From the IMG/VR virus record IMGVR_UViG_3300035703_002833, positions 1 to 20,147 of that record: a DNA stretch of 20,147 nt. One strand, 5' to 3'. Each line of letters begins with the position of its first letter. The first letter of the stretch is position 1. Below the pieces are notes generated by a model. The model saw only the letters and a list, made by a program, of their open reading frames with translations. It ran no database searches and was not told where the DNA came from. This DNA comes from a virus. The position numbers and the translations under genes are program-made. Positions 1,406-16,623 of the stretch are shown here, piece by piece.

Positions 1406-1613
1406 CCTACACCAACTTCACGTAGAGGCCGGACTCTGGGACCGGAACAACTTTGAGCTGCGCGTCAAGTGGATGAACGCCCTCAGAAAAATTGTTGACA
1501 GACGAACTCCGGTCAACAAAGCTGGGTCTCACCTGACGTCCGACATTGACGTGGCTCTGGCTACGCAAGAAGAACATCTGGAAGCACTGGAAAAAATTAA
1601 ACCGAAACAATGA
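1398..1613 (+). CDS. Small hypothetical protein, 71 aa
   Basis: The chosen ATG at 1398 overlaps the preceding stop by 8 bases (ATGATTGA), the same coupling style as the neighbouring genes. A TTG at 1365 would add 11 residues but is less convincing. The protein starts MIDLHQLHVEAGLWDRNNFE and is probably mostly helical and highly charged, ending EALEKIKPKQ. No catalytic motif or membrane segment is visible. Its last four bases overlap the next start as ATGA. Function unknown. Confidence 0.7.
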   Translation: MIDLHQLHVEAGLWDRNNFELRVKWMNALRKIVDRRTPVNKAGSHLTSDIDVALATQEEHLEALEKIKPKQ

Positions 1614-1945
1614 CGACTTGCGAAGAAAACTGGGATGAGGTACATTGCCCGCCCATGCCGAAGAAGATCAACTACCCGTTACGCGGGCGCTACGGAGTTA
1701 GCGCGACTATGCAGCAAGACCAGCCGAACCTTTGGGTTCTGCGCTCCAAATCAGGAATGATCCGTTTCGGTGGGTCGGAAGACGATCCAAATAAAATTTC
1801 TTTTGTTGACTTCGACGGCGGCCCGTTTATTGAAATCGGAACCGACATCGGTCACCTGCACACTCTTCTACCGGAAGGCATTGTTGCTGAGATCAATCTG
1901 GTCAAAGGCAAAGGGATCTGTGTAACGACTAAACCAGCCGAATAA
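1610..1945 (+). CDS. Hypothetical protein, 111 aa
   Basis: This gene overlaps the previous one by ATGA. The protein is 111 aa and probably beta-rich, with a segment LWVLRSKSGMIRFGG and a later FVDFDGGPFIEIG. It has no signal peptide, no membrane helix and no motif I recognise. The leader TTAAACCGAAACAATG is A/C-rich and lacks a Shine-Dalgarno sequence. It lies among small accessory genes ahead of the replication operon, a usual place for host-takeover or accessory functions; that is only a positional suggestion. Confidence 0.7.
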   Translation: MTTCEENWDEVHCPPMPKKINYPLRGRYGVSATMQQDQPNLWVLRSKSGMIRFGGSEDDPNKISFVDFDGGPFIEIGTDIGHLHTLLPEGIVAEINLVKGKGICVTTKPAE

Positions 1946-1950
1946 AACCA

Positions 1951-2217
1951 ATGCAACAAGTATTCGTTTCCCTTGAATGGGGTGATATCATCGAGACCAA
2001 ACAGGGATACTACCTGACAGAGTCAGAAGTAGCGGACGGTGATCTCGCTGTCTATTCTATTCAACAACAAACTAACAAGCCAAACGCTAGATTCTTCGTG
2101 TTCCGTCTTACTCTTAGTGGCGAAAAACCTGTCGGCAATTTCGCGACACTAGACGAAGCAAAACAGGGAGCTGAGAATGATCTCTGTGCCCTACTAAAAG
2201 GCCGCTTTGGAACCTGA
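1951..2217 (+). CDS. Small conserved protein, paralogue of the gene at 11270-11542
   Basis: The 88-aa protein has the core WGD-x2-x-TKQGYYLTE followed by a short beta-rich region and a C-terminal helix (LDEAKQGAENDLCALL). The same layout and many identical residues occur in the minus-strand protein encoded at 11270-11542: TKQGYYLTE, the L-SGEK segment, and DEAK...DLC-LL. The two are clearly paralogues. No catalytic residues are recognisable. The start follows AATAAAACCAATG, with no Shine-Dalgarno. A small adaptor or regulatory protein is possible, but the function is unknown. Confidence 0.75.
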   Translation: MQQVFVSLEWGDIIETKQGYYLTESEVADGDLAVYSIQQQTNKPNARFFVFRLTLSGEKPVGNFATLDEAKQGAENDLCALLKGRFGT

Positions 2218-2228
2218 ATCCTGCGCCC

Positions 2229-2277
2229 GAAACCCTAAATCCGAAACAAGAAACCCGAAACATGAAACATGAAAACA
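2229..2277 (+). repeat. Heptanucleotide GAAACNN tandem array before the helicase start
   Basis: Seven consecutive 7-bp units are visible: GAAACCC, TAAATCC, GAAACAA, GAAACCC, GAAACAT, GAAACAT, GAAAACA. Five contain an exact GAAAC (at 2229, 2243, 2250, 2257 and 2264). The helicase ATG at 2269 spans the last two units. There is no Shine-Dalgarno sequence, so the array may act as an unstructured leader or an initiation enhancer. Most of the 51-bp gap between genes consists of this array. Confidence 0.75.
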
Positions 2278-3570
2278 CTATTCCCAAAACAGCGAGAGTC
2301 CGTTGACTTCCTTAAATCCGCGCTTGTCTGCTACGGCGGTGCGTTAGACTCCAGCCATACCGGAGTCGGCAAGACAATCATCGCGTGTAGAGTAGCTGCT
2401 GAAATGGATCTTCCGGTAGCGGTAGTCTGCCCAAAGATCGTCATCCCACATTGGACTAGGGAGCTCAAAGAGGTCGGTGTCGAGCCGTTGTTTGTTACCA
2501 ACTACGAGAAGATCAAAAGAGGTAAGGACGAGCACTTGTCGAAGATCGGCAAGAAGTTGTTCCGTTGGAACCTACCGGACAACACACTCCTCATCTGGGA
2601 CGAGTGCCACAAATGCAAGTCACCGTTCAGCCAGAACAGCCAGATGCTTGTGGCGGCAAAGCAGGCCGGATACTTCAACCTGATGCTATCCGCGACCGCC
2701 TGTCAGGATCCCACAGAGATGAGATCCATAGGCTACGTCTTGGGCTTGCACTCACTCAACAGAGGCGAGGGCAGCTTGAAGAGCTGGTTCTCATGGATGA
2801 TGGAGTACGGCTGCCGAAAAGATCAGTGGAACAACTGGGTAACCGGAGCGGTGTGGCGCTTAAAATCCCTTAATGAGAAACTGTACAGCTCGAATTGCGT
2901 AAAGCTGACGGCGGACGACCTGCCCACTGCGTTCACTCAGAACCATGTGATCACCGAGCCTTTGGCTTTCGCCGCCCTTAAAGATATCGCCAAGTTCTAT
3001 AAAGAGCACGGAGTCACGCCGGACATCGTCGAGCAGTTTCTGGAGGACGGCGGCGCGTCGCCTCATGTGCTCGTCGAAATCCTTCGGGCTCGGCAAATGG
3101 CTGAGGCGGCAAAGGTTCCCGACATTATCGACATGACTAACGATGCGATTAGTGAAGGATTTAGCGTTGCCATTTTTGTCAACTTTGTGGATACCGTCAG
3201 AGCCTTACAGGTCGGCCTACCGGACTGCGCAACAGTCGTAGGTGGGCAGTCGGCGGCAGATCGCGAAGCTAACGTGCAGAGATTCCAGACCAACGACGCA
3301 AGGGTCATCGTCTGCAACATCGCCGCCGGAGGAGTTGGCGTGTCGCTGCACGATACCGAAGGCGGACATCCTCGGATGTCGTTGATCTCACCGACATTCA
3401 ACGTCAAGGACTACATTCAGACCTTAGGCCGAGTACATCGGGCCGGAGCCAAAACCCCTGTGGTACAACGCATTCTGGTCGCCTCGAAAACAATCGAAGA
3501 AAAAATCGTTGACAAGTTGGAACAGAAGCGCTTGGCTCTCGACACACTTCACGCGAAACAAGAACCATGA
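2269..3570 (+). CDS. SF2 DNA helicase/ATPase (DECH-box)
   Basis: The 433-aa protein has the full superfamily 2 layout. Walker A (HTGVGKT) is at residues 30-36, motif II (DECH) at 111-114 and motif III (SAT) at 141-143. The second RecA-like lobe has GGVGVS and motif VI (QTLGRVHRAG) at about 384-393. The arrangement resembles phage SNF2/UvsW-like helicases that remodel forks or recombination intermediates. It probably acts on DNA in the cytoplasm with the polymerase, nuclease and primase encoded downstream. It overlaps the nuclease start by ATGA. A second ATG at 2262 is out of frame, so 2269 is the start. Substrate polarity cannot be read from the sequence. Confidence 0.92.
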   Translation: MKTLFPKQRESVDFLKSALVCYGGALDSSHTGVGKTIIACRVAAEMDLPVAVVCPKIVIPHWTRELKEVGVEPLFVTNYEKIKRGKDEHLSKIGKKLFRWNLPDNTLLIWDECHKCKSPFSQNSQMLVAAKQAGYFNLMLSATACQDPTEMRSIGYVLGLHSLNRGEGSLKSWFSWMMEYGCRKDQWNNWVTGAVWRLKSLNEKLYSSNCVKLTADDLPTAFTQNHVITEPLAFAALKDIAKFYKEHGVTPDIVEQFLEDGGASPHVLVEILRARQMAEAAKVPDIIDMTNDAISEGFSVAIFVNFVDTVRALQVGLPDCATVVGGQSAADREANVQRFQTNDARVIVCNIAAGGVGVSLHDTEGGHPRMSLISPTFNVKDYIQTLGRVHRAGAKTPVVQRILVASKTIEEKIVDKLEQKRLALDTLHAKQEP

Positions 3571-3582
3571 ATCAAGAAACCA
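3555..3582 (+). repeat. Heptad-periodic leader spanning the nuclease start codon
   Basis: Four 7-bp units beginning with GAA lie in register: GAAACAA, GAACCAT, GAATCAA, GAAACCA (at 3555, 3562, 3569 and 3576). The ATG at 3567 lies across the second and third units. The pattern matches the array before the helicase gene, although here it is also coding sequence. Confidence 0.55.
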
Positions 3583-4697
3583 CACTACCAGCACACGCCG
3601 AGTTCGGCCCTTCGTCGCTTAAATACGTATCGCTCTGCGCCGGATTCCACGGTAAGAACGAGACCAACAAAGCCGCCGAAGTAGGCACTCGCATCCACGA
3701 AGCGCTTGAGACCAGAGACCCATCCGCGCTACAAAGCGAGGATGAACTGCAAATGTACGAGCGTTTACTCTCGGAAGAGAACGAAGTCTTTGAGAATGTC
3801 TTCGGCGGAACGGACGGCGTCACGATTCACAAAGAGATGCGTTTGCATCTTGAGCTCGATTGCAAGACTCCGACCTTCGGTACTTCGGATATTGTCGCTT
3901 TCAAAGACGGCATCGGTCTATTGGTTGACTACAAGACTGGCATCAGCAAGATCGACGAGCCGAGAAACAACTGGCAGGCCAAAGCGTACACACTCGCGGC
4001 GTTCCAGATGTTTCCGGACCTCAAACTGATCCACTTTGCTTTCCTCGTTCCGAAGCGCGACGAGATTCTTGTCGGGCACTTCGAGCGCGGGGAAGCTGAC
4101 CGCCTCCGCGAAGAGATCAGTTCTGTTATCCTCGCAGCAGAGCAGACTCGCCCCAAATGGGAGACCAAGACGGTTGGCATTGACGACCTCAACCCAACGG
4201 TCAACTGCCGCTTCTGCCGACATGAGGAACACTGTCCGGCATTGGGCGCTGTCTGCATCGAAGTCGCGGAGCGCTACAAACCGGAGCTTCTACCGGACGG
4301 GCCAATCGCGTCACACGACGTGGACGATCCAGAGACTCTGGAGAAACTGTACGTCGTAGCAAAGATTGTCGAGAACTGGGCCAGCGGAATTAAGAACAAA
4401 GCAACGGCTCTCGCGCTCTCCGGTCAGAAGTTCAACTCATTGAAACTGCGCTCAATGGGCGCACTCAAAAAGACGGTCGAGAAAAATTATCTTGCACAAC
4501 TCGCGATTCGGTATGGACTTGAGCTCTCCGACGTCATCGAAGCCGCCGACCTTACTATGAACCAGTTGTCCAAAGCACTGCACGATAAAGCGCCTAAAGG
4601 CAAAAAATCTTTCGTAGTCCAATCCTTCGAACGCGAAGCCGTTGATCTCGGCATTGTGGAAGTCGGCCAGACGCGATACACACTTTCCTCGAAGTGA
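3567..4697 (+). CDS. RecB/Cas4-like PD-(D/E)XK exonuclease with Fe-S cysteines (DUF2800-like)
   Basis: The 376-aa protein carries the motifs of the RecB/Cas4 nuclease family. An early GTRIHEALE helix holds the motif histidine H44. The catalytic core is D108, then D121-x-K123 in VDYKTG, with Q137 and Y141 in the QAKAY motif. Four cysteines, C24 plus C214, C217 and C223 (CRFCRHEEHC), are spaced to bind a 4Fe-4S cluster as in Cas4 and AddB. The layout matches phage DUF2800 proteins, usually found beside phage polymerase and helicase genes. Likely role: DNA end resection for recombination-coupled replication. No CRISPR array or other cas genes are present, so a Cas4 role in adaptation is unlikely. 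The start overlaps the helicase stop by ATGA. Confidence 0.88.
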   Translation: MNQETTLPAHAEFGPSSLKYVSLCAGFHGKNETNKAAEVGTRIHEALETRDPSALQSEDELQMYERLLSEENEVFENVFGGTDGVTIHKEMRLHLELDCKTPTFGTSDIVAFKDGIGLLVDYKTGISKIDEPRNNWQAKAYTLAAFQMFPDLKLIHFAFLVPKRDEILVGHFERGEADRLREEISSVILAAEQTRPKWETKTVGIDDLNPTVNCRFCRHEEHCPALGAVCIEVAERYKPELLPDGPIASHDVDDPETLEKLYVVAKIVENWASGIKNKATALALSGQKFNSLKLRSMGALKKTVEKNYLAQLAIRYGLELSDVIEAADLTMNQLSKALHDKAPKGKKSFVVQSFEREAVDLGIVEVGQTRYTLSSK

Positions 4698-4702
4698 GGA
4701 AG
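4684..4702 (+). other. Small hairpin over the nuclease stop codon
   Basis: A 7-bp stem (TTTCCTC with GAGGAAG, one G-U pair) encloses a 5-base loop and includes the TGA stop. No U-tract follows, so it is not a convincing intrinsic terminator. It may stabilise the mRNA end or be chance. Confidence 0.3.
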
Positions 4703-4749
4703 AAGGGAGTCGGCGGCCCCCTGCAATTAAGACGATTCTAGTCAGCCGC

Positions 4750-4777
4750 CAAATCAGAAACCAGAAGCCATAATCCA
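4750..4777 (+). repeat. Heptad-periodic leader before the 207-aa gene
   Basis: Units CAAATCA, GAAACCA, GAAGCCA and TAATCCA stand in 7-bp register, and the final A is the first base of the ATG at 4777. This resembles the helicase leader array. The rest of the 79-bp gap (4698-4749) is G/C-rich and holds only a weak GGCGGC/GCCGCC inverted repeat. Confidence 0.55.
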
Positions 4778-5400
4778 TGAGCACTACAGCACTAGCTACA
4801 ACCAGTAACAGTCTTGCGTTTGTTTCGCAGGACATCGATATCCCCCGCCTCAACGTCATCCAAAAGATGTCTGAGATCGAGGGACCAGTTGGCTCCGTCG
4901 TTCTCGACAAGGAGTCTGTTCTCCTACAAGCAGAACAGAAAGCTCCGGTCGTGGTCGTCGGCGCTCTCAAGCGATGGAAGGAAGACGTACCCTTCGGAGA
5001 AGAGTATATTCCCAAAATCGTAAGCACCGAAACCGAAGCTCAGGAGCTCGCTAAAACTAGCGACTACGAAGTGACGGAGTTCGCCGAAATCATCCTCCTC
5101 ATCCCTCAGGTTGGCGAAGATGACAGTTTGTTCCCGTATCCGATTGGGGACAAGAACTACCAGATCGGTCGGATCACGGTCCAGAAGGACGCATACCGCC
5201 TCACCTACAAGAGGTTGTTTACCTTCCAGACCTTCAATCCTTCCGTTCCGGTTTCCTCCCGCTTCTGGAGCTTCAGCACTGAGCTGATGTCCAAAGGCAA
5301 GTACAGCTGGTATGTTCCGACTCTTTCGCATACGAAAGACGACGTACCTGCTGAGGTCACCGAGTTTGCGACTCGTTTGACGGGAGGAGGTGCGGCATGA
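4777..5400 (+). CDS. Conserved phage replication-operon protein, possible ssDNA-binding role
   Basis: The 207-aa protein is soluble and probably mixed beta/alpha. Recognisable blocks are IPRLNVIQKMSEIEGPVGS near residues 22-40, FPYPIGDKNYQIGR, and a C-terminal GKYSWYVPTLSHTKDD. I recall no experimentally defined function for such a protein. It sits between a DUF2800-like nuclease and a family A polymerase, where many phages encode a single-stranded DNA-binding protein (DUF2815 type). It does not look like DUF2815 in sequence, so the binding role is a positional guess. The heptad leader, not a Shine-Dalgarno, precedes the ATG. It overlaps the next gene by ATGA. Confidence 0.7.
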   Translation: MSTTALATTSNSLAFVSQDIDIPRLNVIQKMSEIEGPVGSVVLDKESVLLQAEQKAPVVVVGALKRWKEDVPFGEEYIPKIVSTETEAQELAKTSDYEVTEFAEIILLIPQVGEDDSLFPYPIGDKNYQIGRITVQKDAYRLTYKRLFTFQTFNPSVPVSSRFWSFSTELMSKGKYSWYVPTLSHTKDDVPAEVTEFATRLTGGGAA

Positions 5401-5636
5401 TTATCAACACACCTAATCCGTTAGCGGTACTCAAAAGGGAGTCCGACTCGATCCGTGCAGTGGTTACCACAATCGATGGTAACATTGCAGACCTCAACAA
5501 CAAGATCACTGAGCTTGCTACTCAGAAGCACTCGCTCAACCTTGTTGTGACGGCGATCGACAATGAGATGGATCGACTTCGTAGTATTGGAGTCGAAGAA
5601 CAACTTGAAATTCCTCTCGACGAGGAAGTTGAGTAA
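5397..5636 (+). CDS. Small coiled-coil protein, 79 aa
   Basis: The 79-aa protein is mostly one long helix with heptad-like hydrophobics (IDGNIADLNNKITELATQK, then LNLVVTAIDNEMDRL) and an acidic C-terminus. A dimeric coiled coil is likely. It overlaps the preceding gene by ATGA. It is the one plus-strand gene with a good Shine-Dalgarno-like sequence (GGGAGGAGG, ending about seven bases before the ATG), though that sequence also encodes the Gly run at the end of the previous protein. Function unknown; a partner for the 207-aa protein or the polymerase is possible. Confidence 0.65.
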   Translation: MIINTPNPLAVLKRESDSIRAVVTTIDGNIADLNNKITELATQKHSLNLVVTAIDNEMDRLRSIGVEEQLEIPLDEEVE

Positions 5637-5649
5637 ACGCATGAGACAA

Positions 5650-5681
5650 GCCTGCACGTCGTTGGACATCGGCGTGCAGGC
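5650..5681 (+). promoter_or_regulatory. 12-bp hairpin ahead of the DNA polymerase gene
   Basis: GCCTGCACGTCG (5650-5661) pairs with CGGCGTGCAGGC (5670-5681), with one G-U pair and an 8-base loop TTGGACAT. It fills most of the 63-bp gap between the coiled-coil gene and the polymerase and ends 18 bases before the polymerase ATG. No U-tract follows (AACCTTTCC). It could be an attenuating mRNA structure, a processing site or a protein-binding site. Confidence 0.7.
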
Positions 5682-5699
5682 AACCTTTCCTACAATCAT

Positions 5700-7475
5700 A
5701 TGAACACCTATGCCTTGGACTTTGAGTCCTACTACGATAGTGATTGCTCAATCACAACCTTAGGCCCGAAGGGCTACTTCTCCCATCCGGCGTTCGACGC
5801 TTACATGGTATCTGTCGTATCTGATAGCGGGTACGAGTTTGTCGGTAATCCTAGGGAGTTTGATTGGTCGGTTCTTGACGGCCAGCGCGTGATTTCCCAT
5901 AACGCAGCTTTCGATGAAAGCCTGTATCTTTTTGGCGTCGAGTCTGGCTGGTGGCCTGCTTGCACACCTACTGAGTGGCACTGTACCGCCGACATGACTG
6001 CGTTCCTCGGTCTGCCTAGATCTCTCAAGAACGCATCCGCTGCGGTCTTAGGGATTGAGGTCAGCAAAGACGTTCGCTCAAATATGAAAGGCAAGCGGTG
6101 GGAAACTATGACAGAAGAATTCCGGACGCAAGTTAGGGACTACGCTCTTCTGGACTCACGATACTGTTTGCAGCTATGGCAAAAACTAGAGGATCAATGG
6201 CCTCAAACCGAGCGCGAAATCAGCTTGCTGAATCGGCGGATCGGGCAGCGCGGTTTACCGATTGATACCGATTTGCTCCGCAAGAATCTGGAAACAATTC
6301 AAACAGAACTATTTGAGGCCGAGCAATCGATTCCGTGGATTGGGGACTACACGCCGCTATCTCGGAAAGCGTTCAACGAACAGTGTCGAATCCAAGGCAT
6401 TGAGCCTCCGGCATCAATCGCGATGGGTAATGAGGAGGCCGACAAGTGGTTCGCCGCGCACCAACAGGCTTGCCCGTGGGCGAGAGCCGTACAGAATTAC
6501 CGCCGCATCAATGCGTTCCTTCGAAAACTGGAAGCGTTTGATAACGGCACGATGCCAGACCAAAGATACTACGGCGGTCTGATGTACTGCGGGGCCAACC
6601 CGACTGCCCGCTTTAGTGGCAGCGGCGGCAACCTTAACCTCCAGAATCTTCCGAGGGATGAGATGTTTGGCGTCAACTTCCGCCACATGATTCGTCCTAA
6701 GAAAGGACACAAGCTTATTGTAGCTGACCTATCTCAGATCGAGGTTCGCACTCTGTGCTGGCTGGCGGGAGACAAAGACGCACTAGAGCTGATTCGAGAG
6801 TCTGAAGATATTTACCATGCTTTCGGTGTATTGCTAAGCCTACATGATCCGGCTAATGGGCCACTGAAATCGTTCGATCCAAAGCTGCGTCACAAAGTGA
6901 AATCGATTGTCCTCGGCTGTGGGTACGGTATGGGACCGACAAAGTTTGCTACATTCAGCGGACTGCCGTTGGAAGAAGCCGAGGCGGCAGTGAATCTTTA
7001 TCGAGAGAAAATGTCTACGGTTAAAAGACTGTGGCGCAAACTCGATAACGATATGGCCGTCGCCTACTCGATTAGCGAGCCCTTTGAACTCGACATGCCA
7101 TCTGGCAGAATGATGCGCTACGGCGTCCTTAAGCGAATGAAGGATACGTCCTCCGACAAGACTCGTTTTCGCTACATTGGCAAGTTGATTCGGAATGGGC
7201 AGCTGAGGGATTTCGCCCTATGGGGCGGGATCTTAACAGAGAACCTGTCACAAGCGCTCGCGAGAGATATTTTCTGCGACATGCTGCTGCGAATTGACAA
7301 AGCTGGATTCCCGATCATTCTGCACGTTCACGATGAAGTGGTGCTTGAAGTTCCGGAAGACACAGCAGAGGACGCGCTACAGCAAGTCCTTCAAATCATG
7401 TCCACTCCTCCGGACTGGATACCGGACATTCCGGTCGCAGCCGAAGGCCACATCTTAGATCTTTACTCCAAATAA
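5700..7475 (+). CDS. Family A DNA polymerase with 3'-5' exonuclease
   Basis: The 591-aa replicative polymerase has a proofreading domain and a polymerase domain but no 5' nuclease domain. Exo I is D7-F-E9, Exo II is HNAAFD around N68-D72, and Exo III is Y148-x3-D152. Polymerase motif A is DLSQIEVR at 343-350. Motif B runs from R397 and K401 to Y409-G410. Motif C is HDE at 544-546. All catalytic carboxylates (D343, D545) are present, so both activities should be intact. The residue aligned to E. coli Pol I F762 is L405. The ATG at 5700 follows CTACAATCAT, with no Shine-Dalgarno. Only four bases separate its stop from the primase start. Confidence 0.95.
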   Translation: MNTYALDFESYYDSDCSITTLGPKGYFSHPAFDAYMVSVVSDSGYEFVGNPREFDWSVLDGQRVISHNAAFDESLYLFGVESGWWPACTPTEWHCTADMTAFLGLPRSLKNASAAVLGIEVSKDVRSNMKGKRWETMTEEFRTQVRDYALLDSRYCLQLWQKLEDQWPQTEREISLLNRRIGQRGLPIDTDLLRKNLETIQTELFEAEQSIPWIGDYTPLSRKAFNEQCRIQGIEPPASIAMGNEEADKWFAAHQQACPWARAVQNYRRINAFLRKLEAFDNGTMPDQRYYGGLMYCGANPTARFSGSGGNLNLQNLPRDEMFGVNFRHMIRPKKGHKLIVADLSQIEVRTLCWLAGDKDALELIRESEDIYHAFGVLLSLHDPANGPLKSFDPKLRHKVKSIVLGCGYGMGPTKFATFSGLPLEEAEAAVNLYREKMSTVKRLWRKLDNDMAVAYSISEPFELDMPSGRMMRYGVLKRMKDTSSDKTRFRYIGKLIRNGQLRDFALWGGILTENLSQALARDIFCDMLLRIDKAGFPIILHVHDEVVLEVPEDTAEDALQQVLQIMSTPPDWIPDIPVAAEGHILDLYSK

Positions 7476-7479
7476 TCAA

Positions 7480-9636
7480 ATGAGATACCGATACCTGAAA
7501 AACCATCGTGCCGTCGCCACGACTTCAATCGACGACCTGTCTACACTCAGCCTGCCCAAACCGAACTTCGACACGAAGGCGCAGTTTCGGAGTTGGTGCG
7601 CAGATGCAAACACCGACCACTGCTTCTACTCAATGGCCGAAGGAGATAATCCGAACGCCAGAATCAGCGAAGACAATCCGGTCAATAAGATACACGGCTT
7701 CGTCGCCGACTACGATGCTCCGGTAGACTGGTCGAAGATCGACGAAGTGTTGAAAGCAAGATGCGAGGATGCGCTCATACCGACATGGCGGACAAGAACA
7801 CATTCCGGTTACATCCGTCTGGTATGGGAGTTTGAAAGCGCATTGCCAATTCCTCCGGCATTAGCCGAGTCATTCTACAAGCGGCTGTCCGACGGCCTCA
7901 AAGCATCGATGCTCGCAGCCGGATTCGACCGGATGAGCCTCAAGCCATCGCAATACTTTGAACTCGGCGAGGACTGGACTAAGACCGGCAACCGCCTGTC
8001 GGAACAACTTGTTCGTACCGTTCTCCTTAAAGCGGCGAATGATACGACAATCAAGACAGAGGACACGAACATACCGATCGACGAGATCGCCGCCGAAGTA
8101 GAACGTCGCTTCCCCAATCGATGGTCCGGCGACTTCTCTGTCGGCGCTCGCGGCCCGTTGTTCTGGATCGACGACGGCATCGACCGCGACGGCTGTCAGG
8201 TGCGTGAGGATGGCATGATCTGCTACTCCGATCGTGCTGGAAAAGGATTTGTCAGCTGGCGGGAAATCTTCGGTAAGAAGTTCGTCGAGCAGTTTGAACA
8301 GAAGAAGCTGACCTGCCTGATGGACCAGTACTGGTTCAACGGCAAGAGTTTCTACAAGCTCTTAGGGAGCGGTCCTGTAGCTATTCCTAAGGAACAGCTT
8401 GTGTTGGAACTGCGCAAAGCCGGATTCTCACTCAAGATTAAGAAGGGTCAGACGATCTCTGAAATCGAGCAAGCGATCCTCACGATCTCCAACGACTGCC
8501 GTGTGGAGGAAGTCGCTCCTGTGATCTTCTCTAAGGATCGGGTCGTCGGGTACAACGGACGCAAGATCCTTAACAGCTGCCGAACGATTCCTGTCAAGCC
8601 CGACACTGACGGCGATCCTTCGAAGTGGCCTTGGCTGCACGACTTCCTTACGCCGTTCTTTGCGGTAGATAACGACGGCAACTCAACGCTGCCCTACTTC
8701 CTAGCATGGTATCAGAGACTGTACCGTGCCGTGTTGGAACACAGACTCGACCAAGGACAGCTGATGATTCTTCTCGGCCCGACCGGAAGAGGAAAAACGC
8801 TATTGACCAACAAAATTATTGGCGCTTCAGTCGGCGGGTTCAGCGATGCCTCCGACTACCTGTCCGGCAAGACCAACTTCAACAAGGATCTGTGCGGGTC
8901 CGCAGCATGGGTCATCGACGACCAGACGGCTGCTACAACCTACGCCGACCAAAGGAAGTTTGTCGAGCTCACAAAGCGGTGCGTTGCTAACCCGAGACTT
9001 GAGTACCATGCCAAGTACTCAGACGCGATTCCGTTGCCGTGGTCCGGACGAGTGATGATGAGCCTAAACATCGACGCAAACTCACTCGCGGCTCTGCCTA
9101 CACTGGACAGCAGCAACCGTGACAAGATTATCGCCCTCCGCGTAAACAGCGGCCACAAAGTCAAATTCCCATCTAATGAAATTGTTGAGAATACTATTAA
9201 CAGTGAGCTTCCTCACTTCCTCCGTTGGCTGCTCGACTGGTCAGCGCCTGATACTATCAAGGACAGCAGCCGCTTCGGAGTGCGAACTTACATCGATTCG
9301 TTCATTGAAGCTGCAGCCTACGATAACAGCAGTCGTTCCGCCATCGCTGAGATGGTCGAATTCTTCAGTAAGAAAGTGAGGGAGGCGTCCGACCGACCGA
9401 AATGGCGAGGCACGCTGACCGAGTTTACTGTGGTGCTGCATGAATGCAACGGCGGTCGGTCAGTCGGCAACTCTCACAATCTGGAGTTCGTCCGGCGCGG
9501 CATGACCGTACTGGAAGAAGTCAGCCAGCACAACAAGCACGTTCGTCCGGTTCGGAGCAAGGGCCACGGCGGCGGCAAGATTTGGGAGATCGACCTGTCG
9601 CCCGACTACGATATCGACAAAGGCGAGGACTTCTGA
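7480..9636 (+). CDS. Primase-polymerase / SF3 (D5-like) helicase fusion
   Basis: The 718-aa protein joins two replication modules. The N-terminal third looks like an archaeo-eukaryotic-type primase: the acidic motif VADYD is at 75-79 (D77, D79), then RTHSGYIRLVWEF, then a third-motif-like FDRMSLKPSQYF at about 149-160. The C-terminal half is a D5/DUF5906-like SF3 helicase. Walker A (GPTGRGKT) is at 433-440, Walker B-like VIDD at 478-481, followed by an arginine/sensor region GRVMMSLNID. It would prime and unwind for the adjacent family A polymerase. The primase assignment is weaker than the helicase one. The gene's last 31 bases overlap the oppositely oriented nuclease gene. Confidence 0.85.
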   Translation: MRYRYLKNHRAVATTSIDDLSTLSLPKPNFDTKAQFRSWCADANTDHCFYSMAEGDNPNARISEDNPVNKIHGFVADYDAPVDWSKIDEVLKARCEDALIPTWRTRTHSGYIRLVWEFESALPIPPALAESFYKRLSDGLKASMLAAGFDRMSLKPSQYFELGEDWTKTGNRLSEQLVRTVLLKAANDTTIKTEDTNIPIDEIAAEVERRFPNRWSGDFSVGARGPLFWIDDGIDRDGCQVREDGMICYSDRAGKGFVSWREIFGKKFVEQFEQKKLTCLMDQYWFNGKSFYKLLGSGPVAIPKEQLVLELRKAGFSLKIKKGQTISEIEQAILTISNDCRVEEVAPVIFSKDRVVGYNGRKILNSCRTIPVKPDTDGDPSKWPWLHDFLTPFFAVDNDGNSTLPYFLAWYQRLYRAVLEHRLDQGQLMILLGPTGRGKTLLTNKIIGASVGGFSDASDYLSGKTNFNKDLCGSAAWVIDDQTAATTYADQRKFVELTKRCVANPRLEYHAKYSDAIPLPWSGRVMMSLNIDANSLAALPTLDSSNRDKIIALRVNSGHKVKFPSNEIVENTINSELPHFLRWLLDWSAPDTIKDSSRFGVRTYIDSFIEAAAYDNSSRSAIAEMVEFFSKKVREASDRPKWRGTLTEFTVVLHECNGGRSVGNSHNLEFVRRGMTVLEEVSQHNKHVRPVRSKGHGGGKIWEIDLSPDYDIDKGEDF

Positions 9637-10154
9637 ATCGTCCGCTTTGTGATCTTCCGTTTCGGCGGGTTCAATTCGGATATCGGCAAAGTGTACTCGT
9701 CCGCAAACGAGAGCTTGCCGTCATCCGGATTGATATGGCCCTTTGGCAGAAACAGTGCCTGCTCGATGAAAGATCGGGCGGGCAGCCAGCCGACGACGTA
9801 GACTTTGGACAGCGCCGAGTTGCACCTAACAAAATAGTAGACATCGCATTTGGCGCAGAGTTTTTCTTTGTCTTTCTCCGACCCGTACACACGGGCAACG
9901 TAGTGGGGCAGTGGCTCTACACTTCCTCTGGTCGTCTTTACATCAACCGTTACGCCGTTCGGCAGAACAAGATCATAAGCGTAGACTCGATTGCCCACTC
10001 GCTCGCCGCCGAGTAGATGATGGATGACAATCTCACCCATCATTCCGGTCTCGTTGCCTTGGCCTCTAGTAAATGAGTTCCGTAGGGAACCCATATCCTT
10101 GGCCTCCCTCCGAGCTTGTTTTCGCATCGTCGGGGTGGGCTCGATAAAAATCAT
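9606..10154 (-). CDS. PD-(D/E)XK endonuclease-like protein
   Basis: The 182-aa protein shows a restriction-endonuclease-like core: E41 in MMGEIVIHHLL, D61 in YDLVLPNG, and D71-V-K73 in VTVDVKTT. Two cysteines follow in LCAKCD, but a metal site is uncertain. The N-terminus is basic (RKQARREAK). Possible roles include Holliday-junction resolution, packaging-related cleavage or host DNA degradation; the sequence does not choose among them. The start codon shares one base with the stop of the upstream virion gene (TGATG), implying coupled translation with it. Its end overlaps the primase gene tail to tail by 31 bp. Confidence 0.75.
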   Translation of the reverse strand: MIFIEPTPTMRKQARREAKDMGSLRNSFTRGQGNETGMMGEIVIHHLLGGERVGNRVYAYDLVLPNGVTVDVKTTRGSVEPLPHYVARVYGSEKDKEKLCAKCDVYYFVRCNSALSKVYVVGWLPARSFIEQALFLPKGHINPDDGKLSFADEYTLPISELNPPKRKITKRTIQKSSPLSIS

Positions 10155-11098
10155 CAGTAGATTGTGTAGAGATTATTCCGATTGCTGGTCCCGTACGGAT
10201 CCACGTTCAGGCGCGGAATCGCTGCGCCTCTGGACGAAGCCATTTCTTCCTCCAGAAGAAGCTGTGCGCGTTGCCAATGATAGTCGGCACGCTCAAGGTC
10301 TGCGTTGTCCTCCGCTAGACGGCCCAACAAGCCGTGCTTGAGAGCACCGATATTTGTCAGGTACACAACGTCTTCGTCGTCCCACAACGGCTTGAACGCC
10401 CGCTTGCAGAGCACATGGACGGTCGTGACGTTATCGGTCGCCCGATTCAGGCGGAACCAACGGTAGCGAGTGACTCCGGAGTCCGGACCAATCGTGGCAA
10501 TGGTCGTCTCGGGATCATCCGCATCTAACCGAATGTCGTAGATGTCGGTAAGCCCGTCGAACTTGATCTCGCGGATCGTCGTGATGTCTTCAGAAAAGGT
10601 GAGGGGCACAGCGTCGCCGACCGCAACTCCGGTACTGGAAGTGTAGACCTTATCTCCGTCGGTAGCCGAAATCGAAACCGTCCCGCCGCTACTGGTACTG
10701 AAGGCAGTTGTCGCGGCGGACTCCGCTGCTGGAACTAGATGGAGGGTGTCGGTCGCGTCGTCGATTAGGAGCTTGGTCGGCCAGTAGCCCGCGTCGATCA
10801 GCCCCCATAGAAGATCGGCTCCGTTATGGTTGAGCCCGACCGAGCGGTAGTCATGCCACAAAGACCGGACCGGAGAAGGGTGGCCGTCTACCATTGTGTG
10901 CAGCACCGAATCGGCCTCTTCCGGAAGCACGACATGTCCGCTTTGGACGGGCAAACTGTACTGGATGGTCAGATCCCGATAGGTTCCACTCCGATGCAGG
11001 CGGTCGAGCACTTGATTTAGGCTAGACTTGAAGTCGCCGTTAGGCTCGATATACGAACCTAAAAGCGGCCTGAGCTGGTTGAGGGTCATTGCGGCCAT
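10154..11098 (-). CDS. Probable virion structural protein (possible head-tail adaptor)
   Basis: The 314-aa protein begins MAAMTLNQLRPLLGSYI. The N-terminal region is helical, the middle (about 125-200) is Ser/Thr-rich and beta-rich, and the C-terminus is helical with LKHGLLGRLAEDNADLERA and a paired tyrosine end. The C-terminal pattern of a long helix with regularly spaced acidic and alanine residues resembles podovirus tail-tubular or adaptor proteins (T7 gp11 type), but this is a weak resemblance. The gene follows the 43-aa gene after 6 bases and is coupled to the nuclease. No Shine-Dalgarno is seen. Confidence 0.6.
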   Translation of the reverse strand: MAAMTLNQLRPLLGSYIEPNGDFKSSLNQVLDRLHRSGTYRDLTIQYSLPVQSGHVVLPEEADSVLHTMVDGHPSPVRSLWHDYRSVGLNHNGADLLWGLIDAGYWPTKLLIDDATDTLHLVPAAESAATTAFSTSSGGTVSISATDGDKVYTSSTGVAVGDAVPLTFSEDITTIREIKFDGLTDIYDIRLDADDPETTIATIGPDSGVTRYRWFRLNRATDNVTTVHVLCKRAFKPLWDDEDVVYLTNIGALKHGLLGRLAEDNADLERADYHWQRAQLLLEEEMASSRGAAIPRLNVDPYGTSNRNNLYTIY

Positions 11099-11104
11099 AC
11101 TGGC

Positions 11105-11236
11105 TTACTTCTTCGGTTTGACTTTGACCTCGCCGGAGTGAAGCTCTTTCTTCAGCTTGCTTTGCTGCTTGCCGGACAAAGGGCTTACTTTGGAAAGCAA
11201 ATAAGCTACCTGTTTCTGAGACTTCTCTTGAGGCAT
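11105..11236 (-). CDS. Small basic protein, 43 aa
   Basis: The translation starts MPQEKSQKQVAYLLSKVSPL and ends KVKVKPKK-like (basic tail, VKVKPKK). It is rich in Lys, Gln and Ser with a short amphipathic helix. It is short, but has a clean ATG, stops 6 bases before the next gene's start, and sits 8 bases below a promoter-like -10. Many phages encode similar very short basic proteins near structural genes, some called DUF3008-like. A specific family cannot be assigned. Confidence 0.6.
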   Translation of the reverse strand: MPQEKSQKQVAYLLSKVSPLSGKQQSKLKKELHSGEVKVKPKK

Positions 11237-11244
11237 GACGTCAA

Positions 11245-11273
11245 ATACTAAACGCCGCTGTGTAATTGGTCAA
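11245..11273 (-). promoter_or_regulatory. Promoter-like site for the 43-aa gene
   Basis: On the minus strand TTGACC (11273-11268) is separated by 17 bases from TAGTAT (11250-11245). The ATG at 11236 is 8 bases after the -10, so a usual start would yield an almost leaderless mRNA. The -35 overlaps the stop codon of the upstream paralogue gene. Confidence 0.45.
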
Positions 11274-11542
11274 CTAAAATCAGACTCCAGTAGATCGCAG
11301 AGGTCTTTGACCGCAGCTATTTTGGCTTCGTCAAATGTAGTATAACTGCCCACGGTTTTTTCACCGCTGATCGTAAGGCGGTACACAGAAAACTTAGCGT
11401 CTGGGTTTTCTGAAGGTTTCTGGATAGCGTAAACGCCTAGCTGACCCTTAGCGATTTCGGCCTCGGTCAGATAGTACCCTTGTTTTGTTTTGACAAGATC
11501 GCCCCAGTTTAACTTGATTTGGCAAACGGTTGGGTGGTCCAT
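11270..11542 (-). CDS. Small conserved protein, paralogue of the gene at 1951-2217
   Basis: The 90-aa protein shares with the early-operon protein the blocks WGD, TKQGYYLTE, L-x-VY-x-IQ, RLT-x-SGEK, and DEAK...DLC-LL. The ATG at 11542 gives an N-terminus of similar length to the paralogue and is preferred over an in-frame TTG at 11584. Identity is clearly high over the whole length, so both copies are probably functional. It is carried on the opposite strand, next to the virion genes, with its own promoter-like site. Function unknown. Confidence 0.75.
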   Translation of the reverse strand: MDHPTVCQIKLNWGDLVKTKQGYYLTEAEIAKGQLGVYAIQKPSENPDAKFSVYRLTISGEKTVGSYTTFDEAKIAAVKDLCDLLESDFS

Positions 11543-11552
11543 AAGTTGGCTG

Positions 11553-11581
11553 AACCTAAGCGGGCGGTCGTCGATTGTCAA
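11553..11581 (-). promoter_or_regulatory. Promoter-like site for the minus-strand paralogue
   Basis: A perfect TTGACA (11581-11576 on the minus strand) precedes TAGGTT (11558-11553) by exactly 17 bases. The ATG at 11542 lies 10 bases after the -10. The -10 match is only partial. It forms a divergent pair with the plus-strand site at 11593-11620. Confidence 0.45.
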
Positions 11582-11592
11582 CAAAAATACAC

Positions 11593-11620
11593 TTGACCGA
11601 TCCGGCCCACCTGCTATCCT
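11593..11620 (+). promoter_or_regulatory. Promoter-like site for the 149-aa gene
   Basis: TTGACC (11593-11598), a 16-base spacer and TATCCT (11615-11620) are followed after 8 bases by the ATG at 11629. The short distance again suggests a near-leaderless transcript. Confidence 0.4.
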
Positions 11621-11628
11621 TTTCGCGT

Positions 11629-12078
11629 ATGGCTAGTGTACCTTTTGCTTCAGTCGCCGAGCGCGGCGGTCGTCTTACTATGGCCCAGAACGCTGCGTAT
11701 CAGTCGGGCCTCCAACGGGCAAACCAGATGCCGCAGTCTACCGGAGCTAAAATCTTCGAAGACACCTTTGCGAACATTCGTGCTAGGTACGGAACTTCCG
11801 GCAGCGGCATTCCTTCAGGCACTGACCGCATGGGTAGGTTCGTCGAGACTCTACTCCGCCGCGCCGAAGTCGGTACAGGTTTGATGACGCCGTTGGAAGT
11901 GCGTGCGAGGGCGATGCCGAATACGTTCGCCTCTTCGCTGAGAAACGCGGGCCTGTCTAGTCAGGTCAGTTCTACGGGCCAGATCGCAGGACAGGCCAGT
12001 CTGTCTTCGATGAGCGATCCGTATGCCAAAGAGAGAAGCGCGTATGCCAGTACAGGCACAGGCCGCTACTTTTCTTAG
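11629..12078 (+). CDS. Hypothetical protein, 149 aa, isolated on the plus strand
   Basis: The ATG at 11629 is chosen because it follows a promoter-like site; a TTG at 11575 is in frame but would place the promoter inside the gene. The protein begins MASVPFASVAERGGRLTMAQ, is rich in Ala, Ser, Gly and Thr, and ends STGTGRYFS. It is predicted partly helical, with RFVETLLRRAEVG near the middle, and low-complexity at the C-terminus. No membrane segment is seen. It is the only plus-strand gene inside the minus-strand virion region. Its last four bases overlap the opposite gene's stop. It could be a small virion or scaffold-like protein; the function is unknown. Confidence 0.65.
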   Translation: MASVPFASVAERGGRLTMAQNAAYQSGLQRANQMPQSTGAKIFEDTFANIRARYGTSGSGIPSGTDRMGRFVETLLRRAEVGTGLMTPLEVRARAMPNTFASSLRNAGLSSQVSSTGQIAGQASLSSMSDPYAKERSAYASTGTGRYFS

Positions 12079-12860
12079 TAAAAAAAAGAAGTAGCTGCGA
12101 TAGTCTGTGTTCTGATAGCGACCGACGGCTGTTGGTTTTGAATCTGTGTTGTGCGTGTTCTCTCAACTTTTAGTTCAGATTCACTGATTGATATATCATA
12201 CTCTGTGGTAGTATTTCCTTGCTGAGAATTTTCATAGTCATAGCATGCGCAAAATGCGTCATTATAAATGACAAAATCTATACCTATAGTTGGGTCGGTA
12301 TCGGCTACCCAGACATCGTACCCAAGCTCTTGGCTAAAGTCTTGAAACAAAAAACCAGCTGTTATCCCCCAAGAGTCATCATAGCTAGACTGATTTAGTG
12401 TATACCTACCGGCACTAGAATCAGCATACAAAGCCAAAAAATCCGACACACTAGACTCGCCATCGGACGGAAGGAATGGATTATATTGTCTTATTGGAAA
12501 TGGGTGCTCTGAGTTAATGTAGGCGTCACTTCTATTAACTCTTGGTGGGTACTCAAATAGATCAGTAGAATTGTCGAACATAGCCCTGTTATTAAACACA
12601 ACAATTATTTGTTGAACAGGAATAATTATAGGGTCTTGTTCTACCCCATTAAAAGATTGCTCGGTTATTTTTAGATACGACCGAAGCCTATGGTTCCAAT
12701 TTATGTACGTTTGCTCCGATACCTGCTGTACAACTTTGTATGATGCAAACTGTTCGTCGGTGATGGTTTTTGTCTTCCCTTTTTCGTAGATACAAATAGG
12801 GTACACATAAGAATCCCCTGACGGGAATACTGGAGTGTACTCTCTGACCCATCTACCCAT
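12075..12860 (-). CDS. Hypothetical virion-associated protein, 261 aa
   Basis: The protein starts MGRWVREYTPVFPSGDSYVY and is rich in Tyr, Asn, Ser and Thr, the composition of beta-rich phage tail or fibre proteins. No catalytic motif is visible. The C-terminal section from about 210 is Ser/Thr/Glu/Gln-rich and probably extended. The gene lies 8 bases below the 103-aa gene in the same direction. Its DNA is markedly AT-rich (20 G/C in the 60 bases 12181-12240; 19 in 12601-12660), unlike the replication genes, suggesting separate origin. Its stop overlaps that of the plus-strand gene by 4 bases. Confidence 0.65.
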   Translation of the reverse strand: MGRWVREYTPVFPSGDSYVYPICIYEKGKTKTITDEQFASYKVVQQVSEQTYINWNHRLRSYLKITEQSFNGVEQDPIIIPVQQIIVVFNNRAMFDNSTDLFEYPPRVNRSDAYINSEHPFPIRQYNPFLPSDGESSVSDFLALYADSSAGRYTLNQSSYDDSWGITAGFLFQDFSQELGYDVWVADTDPTIGIDFVIYNDAFCACYDYENSQQGNTTTEYDISISESELKVERTRTTQIQNQQPSVAIRTQTIAATSFFY

Positions 12861-12868
12861 AAATTTTA

Positions 12869-13180
12869 TCAGGGTTCTGTGAAACCGTACGATGCCTGCA
12901 CCGAGATCGTACCTAGTCTACCGCCTTTGAAACACAATATCGGAATCAAATGACTGCAAGAAGCCGTAAGACCTTGGTTATCGCCTAAAGATGATCCAGC
13001 TGAGATCGATCGTTCGTTTGCTGGTTCTGTTACAGGTAGTGCTTGCGTGACCGACGTGGTCAGGTTCACTGTGCTAACAGTCGATGAGCGGCGACTGTTG
13101 CCCTGATCCACATACGAGGACAAGAATCGCTGCATCTCGTCCATTGAGACGGTAGCGCTTTTTGTAGTTGGGTCTGCCAT
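12869..13180 (-). CDS. Small Ser/Thr-rich hypothetical protein, 103 aa
   Basis: The protein starts MADPTTKSATVSMDEMQRFL, has a Ser/Thr/Val-rich centre and ends with ISVQASYGFTEP. It begins two bases after the stop of the 1146-aa gene, so it probably belongs to the same transcript. The leader CAAATAATTATG is AT-rich without a Shine-Dalgarno. No known domain is recognised. It may be an accessory of the large adhesin upstream, such as a chaperone or small virion protein; this is only context. Confidence 0.6.
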   Translation of the reverse strand: MADPTTKSATVSMDEMQRFLSSYVDQGNSRRSSTVSTVNLTTSVTQALPVTEPANERSISAGSSLGDNQGLTASCSHLIPILCFKGGRLGTISVQASYGFTEP

Positions 13181-13182
13181 AA

Positions 13183-16100
13183 TTATTTGAATTGTGCGGC
13201 GTCAAGTATTGTTGTGATACAGCGAAACCAGCCCCACTTATAGTATTCGATTTTGTAGTCAATCAAGTATAGGCCGCCCCTAGGAATATCCTGCGGGCTA
13301 GAGGGTGGAACTATTACACCAGCCGTTGCGCGGGCCCCTTGGTCACGATGCGTTATGCTTCGGCTTGCCGAATTATATGGATCCGAATCAGTAATATTAT
13401 TTACTGAAGTGGGGGTTATGTTGGTAGTGTTAGAAATGCTGAATCCTTTGGTCAATACGTTGGATATTTCAGTGACCGTAACTTTTGTGTCGGTTGAATA
13501 CGAATAACTCGTAGACCATGAACGAGCGCGAAAGACGGAAGACTCTGACACAGCGTCAGACTGACTTTTGCTATACGAGCTCGTCTGAGACACACTTCTA
13601 CCGACGCCAATTGCACGGCCTGATGAAGTCTTAAACACAGGCCAAGGGTTTATTTTTTCGGCGTTCGCGTAAACATATACAGTTAAGGACCGCGTTTTTG
13701 TTACGCCTCCGGACTCTACTGTAAGCGTAAATGTTGTAGTTTTCTCTACATTAACGACTACTTCACCAGACAAACCCAGATTAGTAGGTTTTGGCTGCGC
13801 CCATACAGGCAGACCTTTAAGGGGGTTACCGTCTAACAAGAAGCTAAAATCTGGGTCGTCAGCAGTTATTTTGACAGAAACAGAAAACACCCCCGTTCCG
13901 TCCCTGAATCCTGTAGCGAAGATTGAACTCGACGAAGCTCCTGCGATTGCAGTTACATTAGATGCGAGCCTGTATCCTTCAGGGTTAGTAGTGAAGATAA
14001 CTGGCGCAGCTAGATCAATTTTAAGGATAGAAAAAACACCACAAAAAACGTAACCGCCGTATACTGTCATCCAGTATTCAACTGACCCCGCGCCCACTCT
14101 GGTATCCCCGTATGTAATTACTGTTGTTGTGGATCCAGATATCTTATAGATGTACCCATTATCAGTAGCATAATAAACATCTGATCCGTCGATAGCTACC
14201 CCACGTACAGTTTTATTGCTTACCGTGGTAAAAGACTGAGTAAAATTACCGGAGGTAGTTGTAATTTTTCTAAGTGCTCTGTTATAATACTCCGAAACAT
14301 AAAGAATAAAATCTGCGCCAGACTCGTCTATGTCGATAGTTTGCGGTAGCAAAAACCTTACCGAACTAGCTGTTGTACTGTTAACGAGTCCGCTATCTGT
14401 TCCGGTGAGCGAGCCAGCAAAAGTTGTCACAGCCCCTCCGCTTGATATTTTTCTAATGGCGTGGTTGCCTGTATCAGTAATGTAAGCGTTCGAGGAAGAA
14501 TCAAATACTATGTCCGTTGGGTTTCTGAATTTGGCAAGAGACTTGTCGGCATTGTTAACATATCCTTCTTCCCCTCCGGCAAAAGTAGTAACTACACCTG
14601 CTGGAGTAACCTGTCGAATACGGTGTTCATCAACCACATAAACATTACCATTCGGTGCGACACAGATACCTTTAGGGTTCAAGAACCTAGCCGCTGGTCC
14701 GGTATTATCAACATAGCCTGACACGGTTGCTGATCCTGCGATAGTAGTAACAACGCCCGCTTGTGTGCATTTTCTTACGGCGTAGCTGTCTACAAAATAA
14801 ATATTGCCGCTACTGTCGACGTCTAGACTTTTAGCTTTTAGCAACGAACCCCCAGCGGACGCCAAATCAGTCCCATAAAATAAAGAAATTACGTCTCTCT
14901 TTTTAGCTACCGTGTTGGACGCGTCGAACTTACTAATAAGTGTTTCAGTAGACGGGGCGACGGTGACAGTAATGGTCTGTGATTCTGTTTTTCCGTTACT
15001 TACTGTCTCAAGAGTGTAAGTAGTATTTGTCGTCGGGCTCAACGAGCCTGTAGTACCTTGTTTAGCTACAGCAGTACCGTTGAGTTTAACTGATTCGGAT
15101 AAAGGAGCAGACCAAACAATTTCAGTGGATTCTCCTTCCCTTATGGTATTTGGCCGCGCATCAAAGTATTCAATCGGCCCGCCGTAGAATTTTTGTTGCG
15201 TAGCCTCGATAACCTCTTCTTCAGTAAAATTCGTATTTGAGAGGCTCTCTTCCCCGCCTTTATTGATGAAGAATATGTGGTTATTGACTTTCAGATCGCG
15301 ACCCCAGATACGTTGTGTCGTGATCACAAACTCCGGCATTGAGCTAGAGGAGCTAGAGGACGACCCGCCAGTTGATAAAGAGTACGCGATATTGCCTGAA
15401 CTACTGCCGGAGCTTGAAAGATTATCGGACGTGCTTTTGCTGTTCGAAGAGCCTTTAGACTCGCTTGTGTTATAGAGTACCTCTACATTAAGGAGTACCG
15501 ACGGCAGATCCAAATTGGTGCGCGAAGGGAAAGTAAACCTGTACGACGACAATCCGTCCGCAGGCGGAACCTCAGTCTGTTTCAGATAGCGGTCCTCGTT
15601 GACTGGCTCGAACGAGGTGAACGGCGTTTGTAGATCGCTTTCAGATGGCGGGTCAACAAAAGTCCTCTTCGTCAGAATTGGCGAATTAAGCAACGGGTCC
15701 CACTCAGATCGGGTCAGCTCCGGCCAGTCCTGAACCTTTACCGTCTGCACGACAAAGTTGCCGTCGCCCAACGGAGTTGTTTTGGACTCGACCACATGCA
15801 GCCCCGTTTCGAGTTCGGGGCTCGTCGTGAGGGTCTCGGTCACTGACGCGGTGGTCGTCTCGACGTAGGCTTGTTCGCCGCTGAGGGTAACCGTGTCTGT
15901 GAGGCCGCCTCGGCTGATGTTCGTGACCAGCTTGACGTCCGGATTGATCTGCTTTTCTGTTACCGCCAGATCATCAGCGTCGAGAGTCGGCTCTTCGGCC
16001 TGTCCTTCGACTATCCGGTCGGTCCGAAGTGTTGGGTACTCAGCTCTGAACTTTTCAGGAATAACGTCGGGCCGTTCTTTTTCAAAGGAAGGAATGTCGT

Positions 16101-16623
16101 CCAGCAAAGACCGCTCGATGTAGCGGTGGGCCTCGATGACGTACAGCGAGTCGAGTTCGGGCTGGTCCGTCTTCTGTTGCTCTTTGTCGAAGAAGATGTA
16201 CTCGTCTTTCTCGAACATGCCCTTCGGCACGTCAGGCATCGCAGTGCCGAACGGAATGTCCACCGGATCGTACTCTGCTCTCGGCGTAACGTAGATCCGA
16301 GTAATGATCCTGTAGTTCCGGTCTCCTTCACGACCGCCGATGTTAGAAAAGCCTGTTGAGAAATTGTACAGATCCTGATTGGCGCGGTCGGCGGCGTAGT
16401 AGAACTCGAACAGACCTTCGCGCTGATCGGCTTCGACCTGCTTGACAAAAACCAGCTTATGATCAGGCCACTTCTTGGAATCCGGATGCGCCGTGCCGTA
16501 CGCAGGAATCTCGGTGCGGGTGCAATCCCGAAGCTCACTGAACAGCACATCGCTGCTGAGCGGCGTCGGAAAGATTCTGGTATCTTGCCGGAACGGCGAT
16601 AAAGGCAGTTTGGAGATAGCCAT
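13183..16623 (-). CDS. Large virion adhesin-like protein with NHL beta-propeller and Ig-like domains
   Basis: The 1146-aa protein is modular. Residues 1-380 look like a virion-attachment region, containing LVFVKQVEADQREGLFEFYY. Residues 388-428 are a Ser-rich linker with eight consecutive Ser. Residues 484-555 form an Ig-like sandwich (GESTEIVWSA ... YTLETVSNG). Residues about 598-870 hold NHL-type propeller blades: DSSGNIYFVDSYAVRK with VVTTIAGS, PNGNVYVVDEHRIRQ with VVTTFAGG, SSNAYITDTGNHAIRK with AVTTFAGS, then two or three degenerate blades. Residues 916-986 form a second Ig-like domain, and a Ser/Thr-rich tail follows. It likely contributes to host recognition or tail structure. No signal peptide is seen. 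It starts one base after the fibre gene's stop. Confidence 0.82.
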   Translation of the reverse strand: MAISKLPLSPFRQDTRIFPTPLSSDVLFSELRDCTRTEIPAYGTAHPDSKKWPDHKLVFVKQVEADQREGLFEFYYAADRANQDLYNFSTGFSNIGGREGDRNYRIITRIYVTPRAEYDPVDIPFGTAMPDVPKGMFEKDEYIFFDKEQQKTDQPELDSLYVIEAHRYIERSLLDDIPSFEKERPDVIPEKFRAEYPTLRTDRIVEGQAEEPTLDADDLAVTEKQINPDVKLVTNISRGGLTDTVTLSGEQAYVETTTASVTETLTTSPELETGLHVVESKTTPLGDGNFVVQTVKVQDWPELTRSEWDPLLNSPILTKRTFVDPPSESDLQTPFTSFEPVNEDRYLKQTEVPPADGLSSYRFTFPSRTNLDLPSVLLNVEVLYNTSESKGSSNSKSTSDNLSSSGSSSGNIAYSLSTGGSSSSSSSSMPEFVITTQRIWGRDLKVNNHIFFINKGGEESLSNTNFTEEEVIEATQQKFYGGPIEYFDARPNTIREGESTEIVWSAPLSESVKLNGTAVAKQGTTGSLSPTTNTTYTLETVSNGKTESQTITVTVAPSTETLISKFDASNTVAKKRDVISLFYGTDLASAGGSLLKAKSLDVDSSGNIYFVDSYAVRKCTQAGVVTTIAGSATVSGYVDNTGPAARFLNPKGICVAPNGNVYVVDEHRIRQVTPAGVVTTFAGGEEGYVNNADKSLAKFRNPTDIVFDSSSNAYITDTGNHAIRKISSGGAVTTFAGSLTGTDSGLVNSTTASSVRFLLPQTIDIDESGADFILYVSEYYNRALRKITTTSGNFTQSFTTVSNKTVRGVAIDGSDVYYATDNGYIYKISGSTTTVITYGDTRVGAGSVEYWMTVYGGYVFCGVFSILKIDLAAPVIFTTNPEGYRLASNVTAIAGASSSSIFATGFRDGTGVFSVSVKITADDPDFSFLLDGNPLKGLPVWAQPKPTNLGLSGEVVVNVEKTTTFTLTVESGGVTKTRSLTVYVYANAEKINPWPVFKTSSGRAIGVGRSVSQTSSYSKSQSDAVSESSVFRARSWSTSYSYSTDTKVTVTEISNVLTKGFSISNTTNITPTSVNNITDSDPYNSASRSITHRDQGARATAGVIVPPSSPQDIPRGGLYLIDYKIEYYKWGWFRCITTILDAAQFK

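Follow-up and report, generated by a model that had tools for sequence, protein, structure and literature searches.

An Ig–NHL Propeller Block at One Site of an Unnamed Phage Protein Family

Introduction

That host-recognition proteins of phages can carry propellers is established, an example being the receptor-binding protein Gp45 of Staphylococcus phage phi11 with its propeller platform (PMC4901313). PRD1 P2, PhiKZ gp131 and the endosialidases are cited in that paper as further phage propellers, the K1F and phi92 endosialidase tailspikes among them. NHL repeats have been described in the tail fibre of the Nitratiruptor phage NrS-2, and three of its six repeats are missing from the fibre of NrS-3 (NrS2_61 and NrS3_61; PMC9723563). 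In the open literature, as distinct from subscription journals, we found no paper joining the terms NHL repeat, phage and receptor binding protein. Here we analyse a stretch of viral DNA of 20,147 nucleotides (IMG/VR record IMGVR_UViG_3300035703_002833, positions 1 to 20,147; hereafter the window), in which a minus-strand open reading frame at 13183-16623 encodes a protein of 1146 amino acids, P0001. A preliminary description made from the letters alone had reported an NHL propeller and Ig-like domains within a phage virion-type protein, and the analysis confirms that this feature is real.

Compared with these systems, P0001 resembles the NrS-2 and NrS-3 fibres in carrying NHL-type repeats that vary between close relatives, but those phages belong to another group, Pfam assigns the propeller repeats of the NrS-2 fibre (five stretches) to SBBP and not to NHL, and searches with the P0001 scaffold left the NrS-2/NrS-3 record unmatched. 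Its likeness to phi11 Gp45 is a propeller inside a protein with a role in host recognition, a putative one for P0001. Gp45, unlike P0001, has a five-bladed propeller in a trimer with a helical stem and does not appear among the P0001 sequence matches; the architecture found here is not of the phi11 type, the propeller being NHL-type and long helices being absent from the models of the insert and of the scaffold relative L012. The K1F and phi92 tailspikes likewise bear a propeller on a tail adhesin, but one that, as cited in PMC4901313, is a catalytic endosialidase with trimeric propellers on a stem. Among solved structures, the propeller is closest to a teneurin-like protein from a bacterium (PDB 9ifo; 3e-29 by sequence, 2.5e-13 with Foldseek), which, like other NHL proteins, is cellular and differently built. 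Among uncultured phages, a fibre-like protein of 1826 amino acids (L089:4141-9621, IMGVR_UViG_3300024999_000186) has two sets of six NHL repeats, but no common scaffold was seen and its repeats are 33% identical to the P0001 propeller. P0001 adds one case to the few phage fibres with NHL-type propellers.

Results and Discussion

Gene Layout and Neighbourhood

The coordinates of the protein domains and of the neighbouring genes are collected in Table 1. At the position of the 486-aa upstream protein, the insert-free phage L132 (see below) has a tail fibre gene (phrog_24754, 8e-44) whose product is related to it (E 2e-14). The 314-aa gene, c0, lies a few genes downstream of the family gene in nearly all of 81 loci, and the window agrees with this arrangement; profiles of c0 and of another neighbour, c10, found no relative in the PDB. 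Markers of tailed phages in this group include amidase-type endolysin genes and, in the sister contig G001, a terminase gene.

Table 1. Positions in the window of the P0001 gene, its domains and its neighbours.
Feature	Window positions	Strand	Basis
Whole gene P0001	13183..16623	-	Open reading frame; sister L002:8001-11558 agrees in start and full length
Conserved N-terminal domain, residues 1-178, motif AYGTAHPD..KWP.HKL	16090..16623	-	At least 95 viral loci; family alignment
Remaining scaffold, residues 179-454, with Ser-rich stretch at about 385-430	15262..16089	-	46-47% identity to insert-free L130 and L132, measured across residues 1-454
Inserted Ig-NHL-Ig block, residues about 455-968	13720..15261	-	Splice alignment; drop in third-position GC; edges +/- about 25 residues
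Ig-like beta-sandwich 1, residues 480-560	14944..15186	-	AlphaFold pLDDT about 73-90; 38% identity to sister domain
NHL blade 1, residues 597-632	14728..14835	-	Blade profile, 31.4 bits
NHL blade 2, residues 644-685	14569..14694	-	Blade profile, 54.5 bits
NHL blade 3, residues 696-738	14410..14538	-	Blade profile, 55.2 bits
NHL blade 4, residues 755-799	14227..14361	-	Blade profile, 17.8 bits
NHL blade 5 (degenerate), residues 806-841	14101..14208	-	-0.4 bits, within shuffles; strands at moderate pLDDT
Presumed blade 6 (degenerate), residues about 846-882	13978..14088	-	Alignment to sister blade 6 only; low model confidence
Ig-like beta domain 2 (weak), residues 889-985	13669..13959	-	Strands at pLDDT about 30-72; 39% identity to sister domain
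C-terminal scaffold part, residues 992-1146, PWPVFK...DYKIEYYKWGW	13186..13650	-	Also in the sister and in orthologues lacking the insert, E 1e-8 to 1e-12
Upstream tail-fibre-type protein, 486 aa	16625..18085	-	phrog_18251, 1e-35 (unknown function); phrog_2012, minor tail protein, 0.002
Downstream gene in variable segment, 103 aa	12869..13180	-	Gene call; window-G001 comparison
Downstream gene in variable segment, 261 aa, third-position GC 0.37	12075..12860	-	Gene call; window-G001 comparison; third-position GC
Conserved downstream gene c0, 314 aa	10154..11098	-	Cluster of 82 members; 97% identity in sister

An Unnamed Protein Family Forms the Scaffold

The N-terminal domain is common to at least 95 viral loci from uncultured tailed phages, 80 of which were fetched. 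An alignment of 36 members shows conservation of R12 and Q13, of Y42-D48, and of R109 and Y111, to all of which P0001 conforms. The propeller is joined to the domain of a phage protein family in a tail-fibre neighbourhood, which bears out the phage-like N-terminal region of the preliminary description. Most family members are 390-610 aa long, and two of the more distant ones (L009 and L010, genes starting at 8001) have in their central part low-complexity Ser/Thr/Asn/Gly repeat tracts of several hundred residues. The C-terminus of P0001 compares weakly with the wide family at the profile level, the link being supplied by L131 and L132. In a search for NHL repeats over 49 records, they were present only in the window, in G001 and in the unrelated L089. 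One further locus encodes a protein of 1045 aa (L036:4227-7361) with three N-terminal domains in tandem.

Despite its presence in at least 95 viral loci, the family has been missed by annotation libraries. The scaffold has no convincing family match in PHROG, Pfam or the PDB, and the model of its relative L012 retrieved nothing at E <= 0.001 from PDB and BFVD with Foldseek. Among the records of named phages, neither the N-terminal domain, nor an insert-free orthologue, nor the 314-aa neighbour found a match. A search of 296 genomes from a single phylum and 7 further genomes, run without a positive control, gave no provirus with the N-terminal domain. This unnamed family looks new, as does the fact that one of its sites is occupied in some members and empty in others.

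Sequence and Model Evidence for the Propeller

The three motifs quoted in the preliminary description are present at residues 606-612, 659-665 and 711-717, and VTT[IF]AG follows each of them (625, 678 and 732). Its count of at least three NHL blades can be raised to four significant ones in P0001, by a blade profile that drew on bacterial sequences only and was judged against a background of 200 shuffled proteins (top score 1.8 bits); the fifth blade scores at noise level, and the same profile finds all six blades in the sister protein. Pfam NHL families exceed their curated cut-offs, both TEN_NHL (PF25021; 2.2e-15, 56.9 bits against 27.1) and NHL (PF01436; 4.2e-9, 36.4 bits against 20).

The input to an AlphaFold model of residues 478-1146 included the sister protein together with six NHL segments from bacteria; the full-length family alignment put NHL fragments in the wrong place and was left out of folding. 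The model has four-stranded blades from residue 597, with blades 1-4 mostly at pLDDT 75-95 (down to about 67 in the linker between blades 3 and 4), blade 5 at about 57-77 and the sixth position mostly below 50, while the C-terminal 155 residues of P0001 are unreliable. Foldseek matches include Pizza6, NHLRC2, PknD and SOQ1, with target-normalised TM mostly 0.68-0.78 for single-propeller chains, and about 0.67-0.78 for the six-bladed Pizza6. Structure prediction, the check that had been proposed, therefore returns an NHL-type propeller, and that the P0001 insert contains a propeller of this fold is shown. As blades 5 and 6 of P0001 are degenerate, we infer its closure by six blades, which is likely. 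With regard to the flanking Ig-like domains, the one on the N-terminal side holds as a confidently modelled beta-sandwich, with Pfam Ig matches that fall below the cut-off, and the one on the C-terminal side is weak (Table 1).

The Block Is Absent from the Closest Orthologues

A search with the 314-aa neighbour led to four phages (L129-L132) that have the same gene upstream of the 314-aa gene, and in them it carries no propeller; in L129 and L131 the gene start is lost at the contig end. Residues 1-454 are 46-48% identical to the insert-free orthologues, and the sequence is common with them again from about 965-992 onward. Splice alignment replaced a global alignment with cheap gap extension, in which the edges of the insert came out scattered. 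Against L132 it gives an insert of 514 aa at 455-968, with a right-hand score of 167 compared with a shuffled maximum of 41, and against L131 one of 509 aa at 465-973, with 124 compared with 32. For the sister protein P0002 the splice cut against L131 fell elsewhere (550-1094), and its edges were therefore taken from L132. The Ig-propeller-Ig block is shown to be a clean insertion with respect to the orthologues. Gain of the block is likelier than loss because most family members are without it. The preliminary description had considered that homologues might have an ordinary fibre shaft here; the four nearest homologues without the insert lack the region altogether, unlike the more distant L009 and L010 with their low-complexity centre.

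The Sister Phage and Mosaicism

The sole full-length relative found with a propeller is encoded by a 34 kb contig (G001 or L002, IMGVR_UViG_3300034021_001102), and its protein is 53% identical overall to P0001. The two phages share 93.6% nucleotide identity over window positions 1607-11237 (9.6 kb) and have zero nucleotide similarity over 11238-13158 and 13303-15493. Along the protein, identity is highest in residues 1-235 (95-97%), lower in 236-380 (71%) and lowest in the blocks of 381-985 (36-41%; about 38% over 481-985), and past residue 381 no estimate of synonymous distance could be obtained, as saturation would give. The insert as a whole is 34% identical between the two, and both keep the reading frame and the domain order Ig-propeller-Ig. 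Third-position GC falls at the insert from 0.62-0.67 to 0.34-0.38 in P0001 and from 0.52-0.63 to 0.31-0.45 in the sister, and remains low through the C-terminus in both phages. These nucleotide and protein comparisons show mosaicism around the insert.

Origin of the Propeller

Domains of this type often occur in surface proteins of bacteria. Bacterial proteins match part of the propeller at 38-53% identity and come from several phyla, among them Spirochaetota, Proteobacteria and Bacteroidota. No near-identical bacterial relative is present in samples of 247, 398 and 198 genomes, the top match being 53% over 139 aa, and a scan of genome collections for a relative of the propeller gave at most 42% identity. 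Over its first four blades, P0001 has 46% identity with a Haliotispira protein and 39% with the sister P0002, and in a tree of these four blades the relevant nodes have support of 54-69 and give no placement. An origin from propellers of bacterial type is plausible. Because the matches are distant and scattered over phyla and the tree of four blades is undecided, neither a donor nor the capture from a host proposed in the preliminary description is established, the sampled genomes holding no near bacterial donor; mimicry of a host surface protein, also suggested there, finds no support beyond the bacterial-type origin.

Two kinds of apparent phage matches were set aside. The NHL genes of two unverified faecal 'phage' records, MT835956.1 and MT837514.1 (L123 and L124), are likely Bacteroides lipoproteins (IPT/TIG and NHL domains, with a lipobox-like start), and we take these records to be possibly bacterial DNA. 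A match in a Salicola phage is better explained by a WD40-like protein.

Possible Roles of the Inserted Block

Given the clean insertion and the exchangeable position, host binding is the best reading, and the Ig-propeller-Ig block is probably an exchangeable module for host recognition, carried by a tail-associated protein. The N-terminal domain and the C-terminal part would form a scaffold attaching to the particle. At one site of this scaffold, the window phage and one sister carry the block of about 514 residues. The propeller would project outward and, by analogy with what is thought for other phage adhesins, would bind a surface ligand of the host cell. The stretch containing the block turns over among close relatives in the manner of host-range modules. 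It is possible, and we propose it tentatively, that the family is a general module-swapping platform for host recognition, whose central site takes either NHL and Ig domains or Ser/Thr/Gly/Asn tracts. Comparison of members in which the site is occupied with members in which it is empty allows a test of the role of the propeller in host recognition.

A rather unlikely alternative is that the block decorates the surface and holds the particle to environmental polymers (mucus, polysaccharide or biofilm matrix) instead of to the infection receptor, comparable to the Ig domains of some phage heads. It accords with the Ig-like domain before the propeller, and probably another after it, and with the block being missing in most family members, so that it would be dispensable for infection in general; but the gene adjoins tail-fibre genes, and turnover of the segment among close relatives is more typical of host-range modules.

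NHL propellers may also serve as enzymes or protein-protein platforms. That the insert has no binding role, being a spacer or a protein-protein platform inside the tail whose divergence reflects relaxed constraint, is doubtful in view of the frame and domain order preserved in two phages at only 34% insert identity, even with degenerate blades 5 and 6 in P0001, relatives that do without the insert, and tracts in L009 and L010 that resemble spacers. We find it very unlikely that the propeller is an enzyme domain, such as an NHL-type lyase, modifying a surface polymer. The endosialidase propellers of phages are catalytic (cited in PMC4901313), but the top structure and sequence matches of P0001 are teneurin-like proteins, NHLRC2, PknD and designed Pizza proteins, and its first four blades, only 39% identical to those of P0002, give no sign of a fixed catalytic set, as judged from overall identity and not site by site. 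An assembly chimera or bacterial contamination, to which the bacterial type of the NHL region and the two lipoprotein-like faecal records could point, is contradicted by the distinct contig G001, where this architecture recurs between phage genes, and can be set aside with near certainty.

Other Genes in the Window

Elsewhere in the window, the adjacent genes at 9-338 and 328-1260 have a common C-terminal sequence (ERWRNCARKLAA...EFYRKLQEQ.NE), and a single region of G001 matches both; the second of them contains a YdcK-type beta-solenoid repeat (Pfam, 7e-14). Two small related proteins of 88 and 104 aa, with ..TKQGYYLTE.., are encoded on opposite strands at 1951-2217 and 11270-11584 and fall in one gene cluster.
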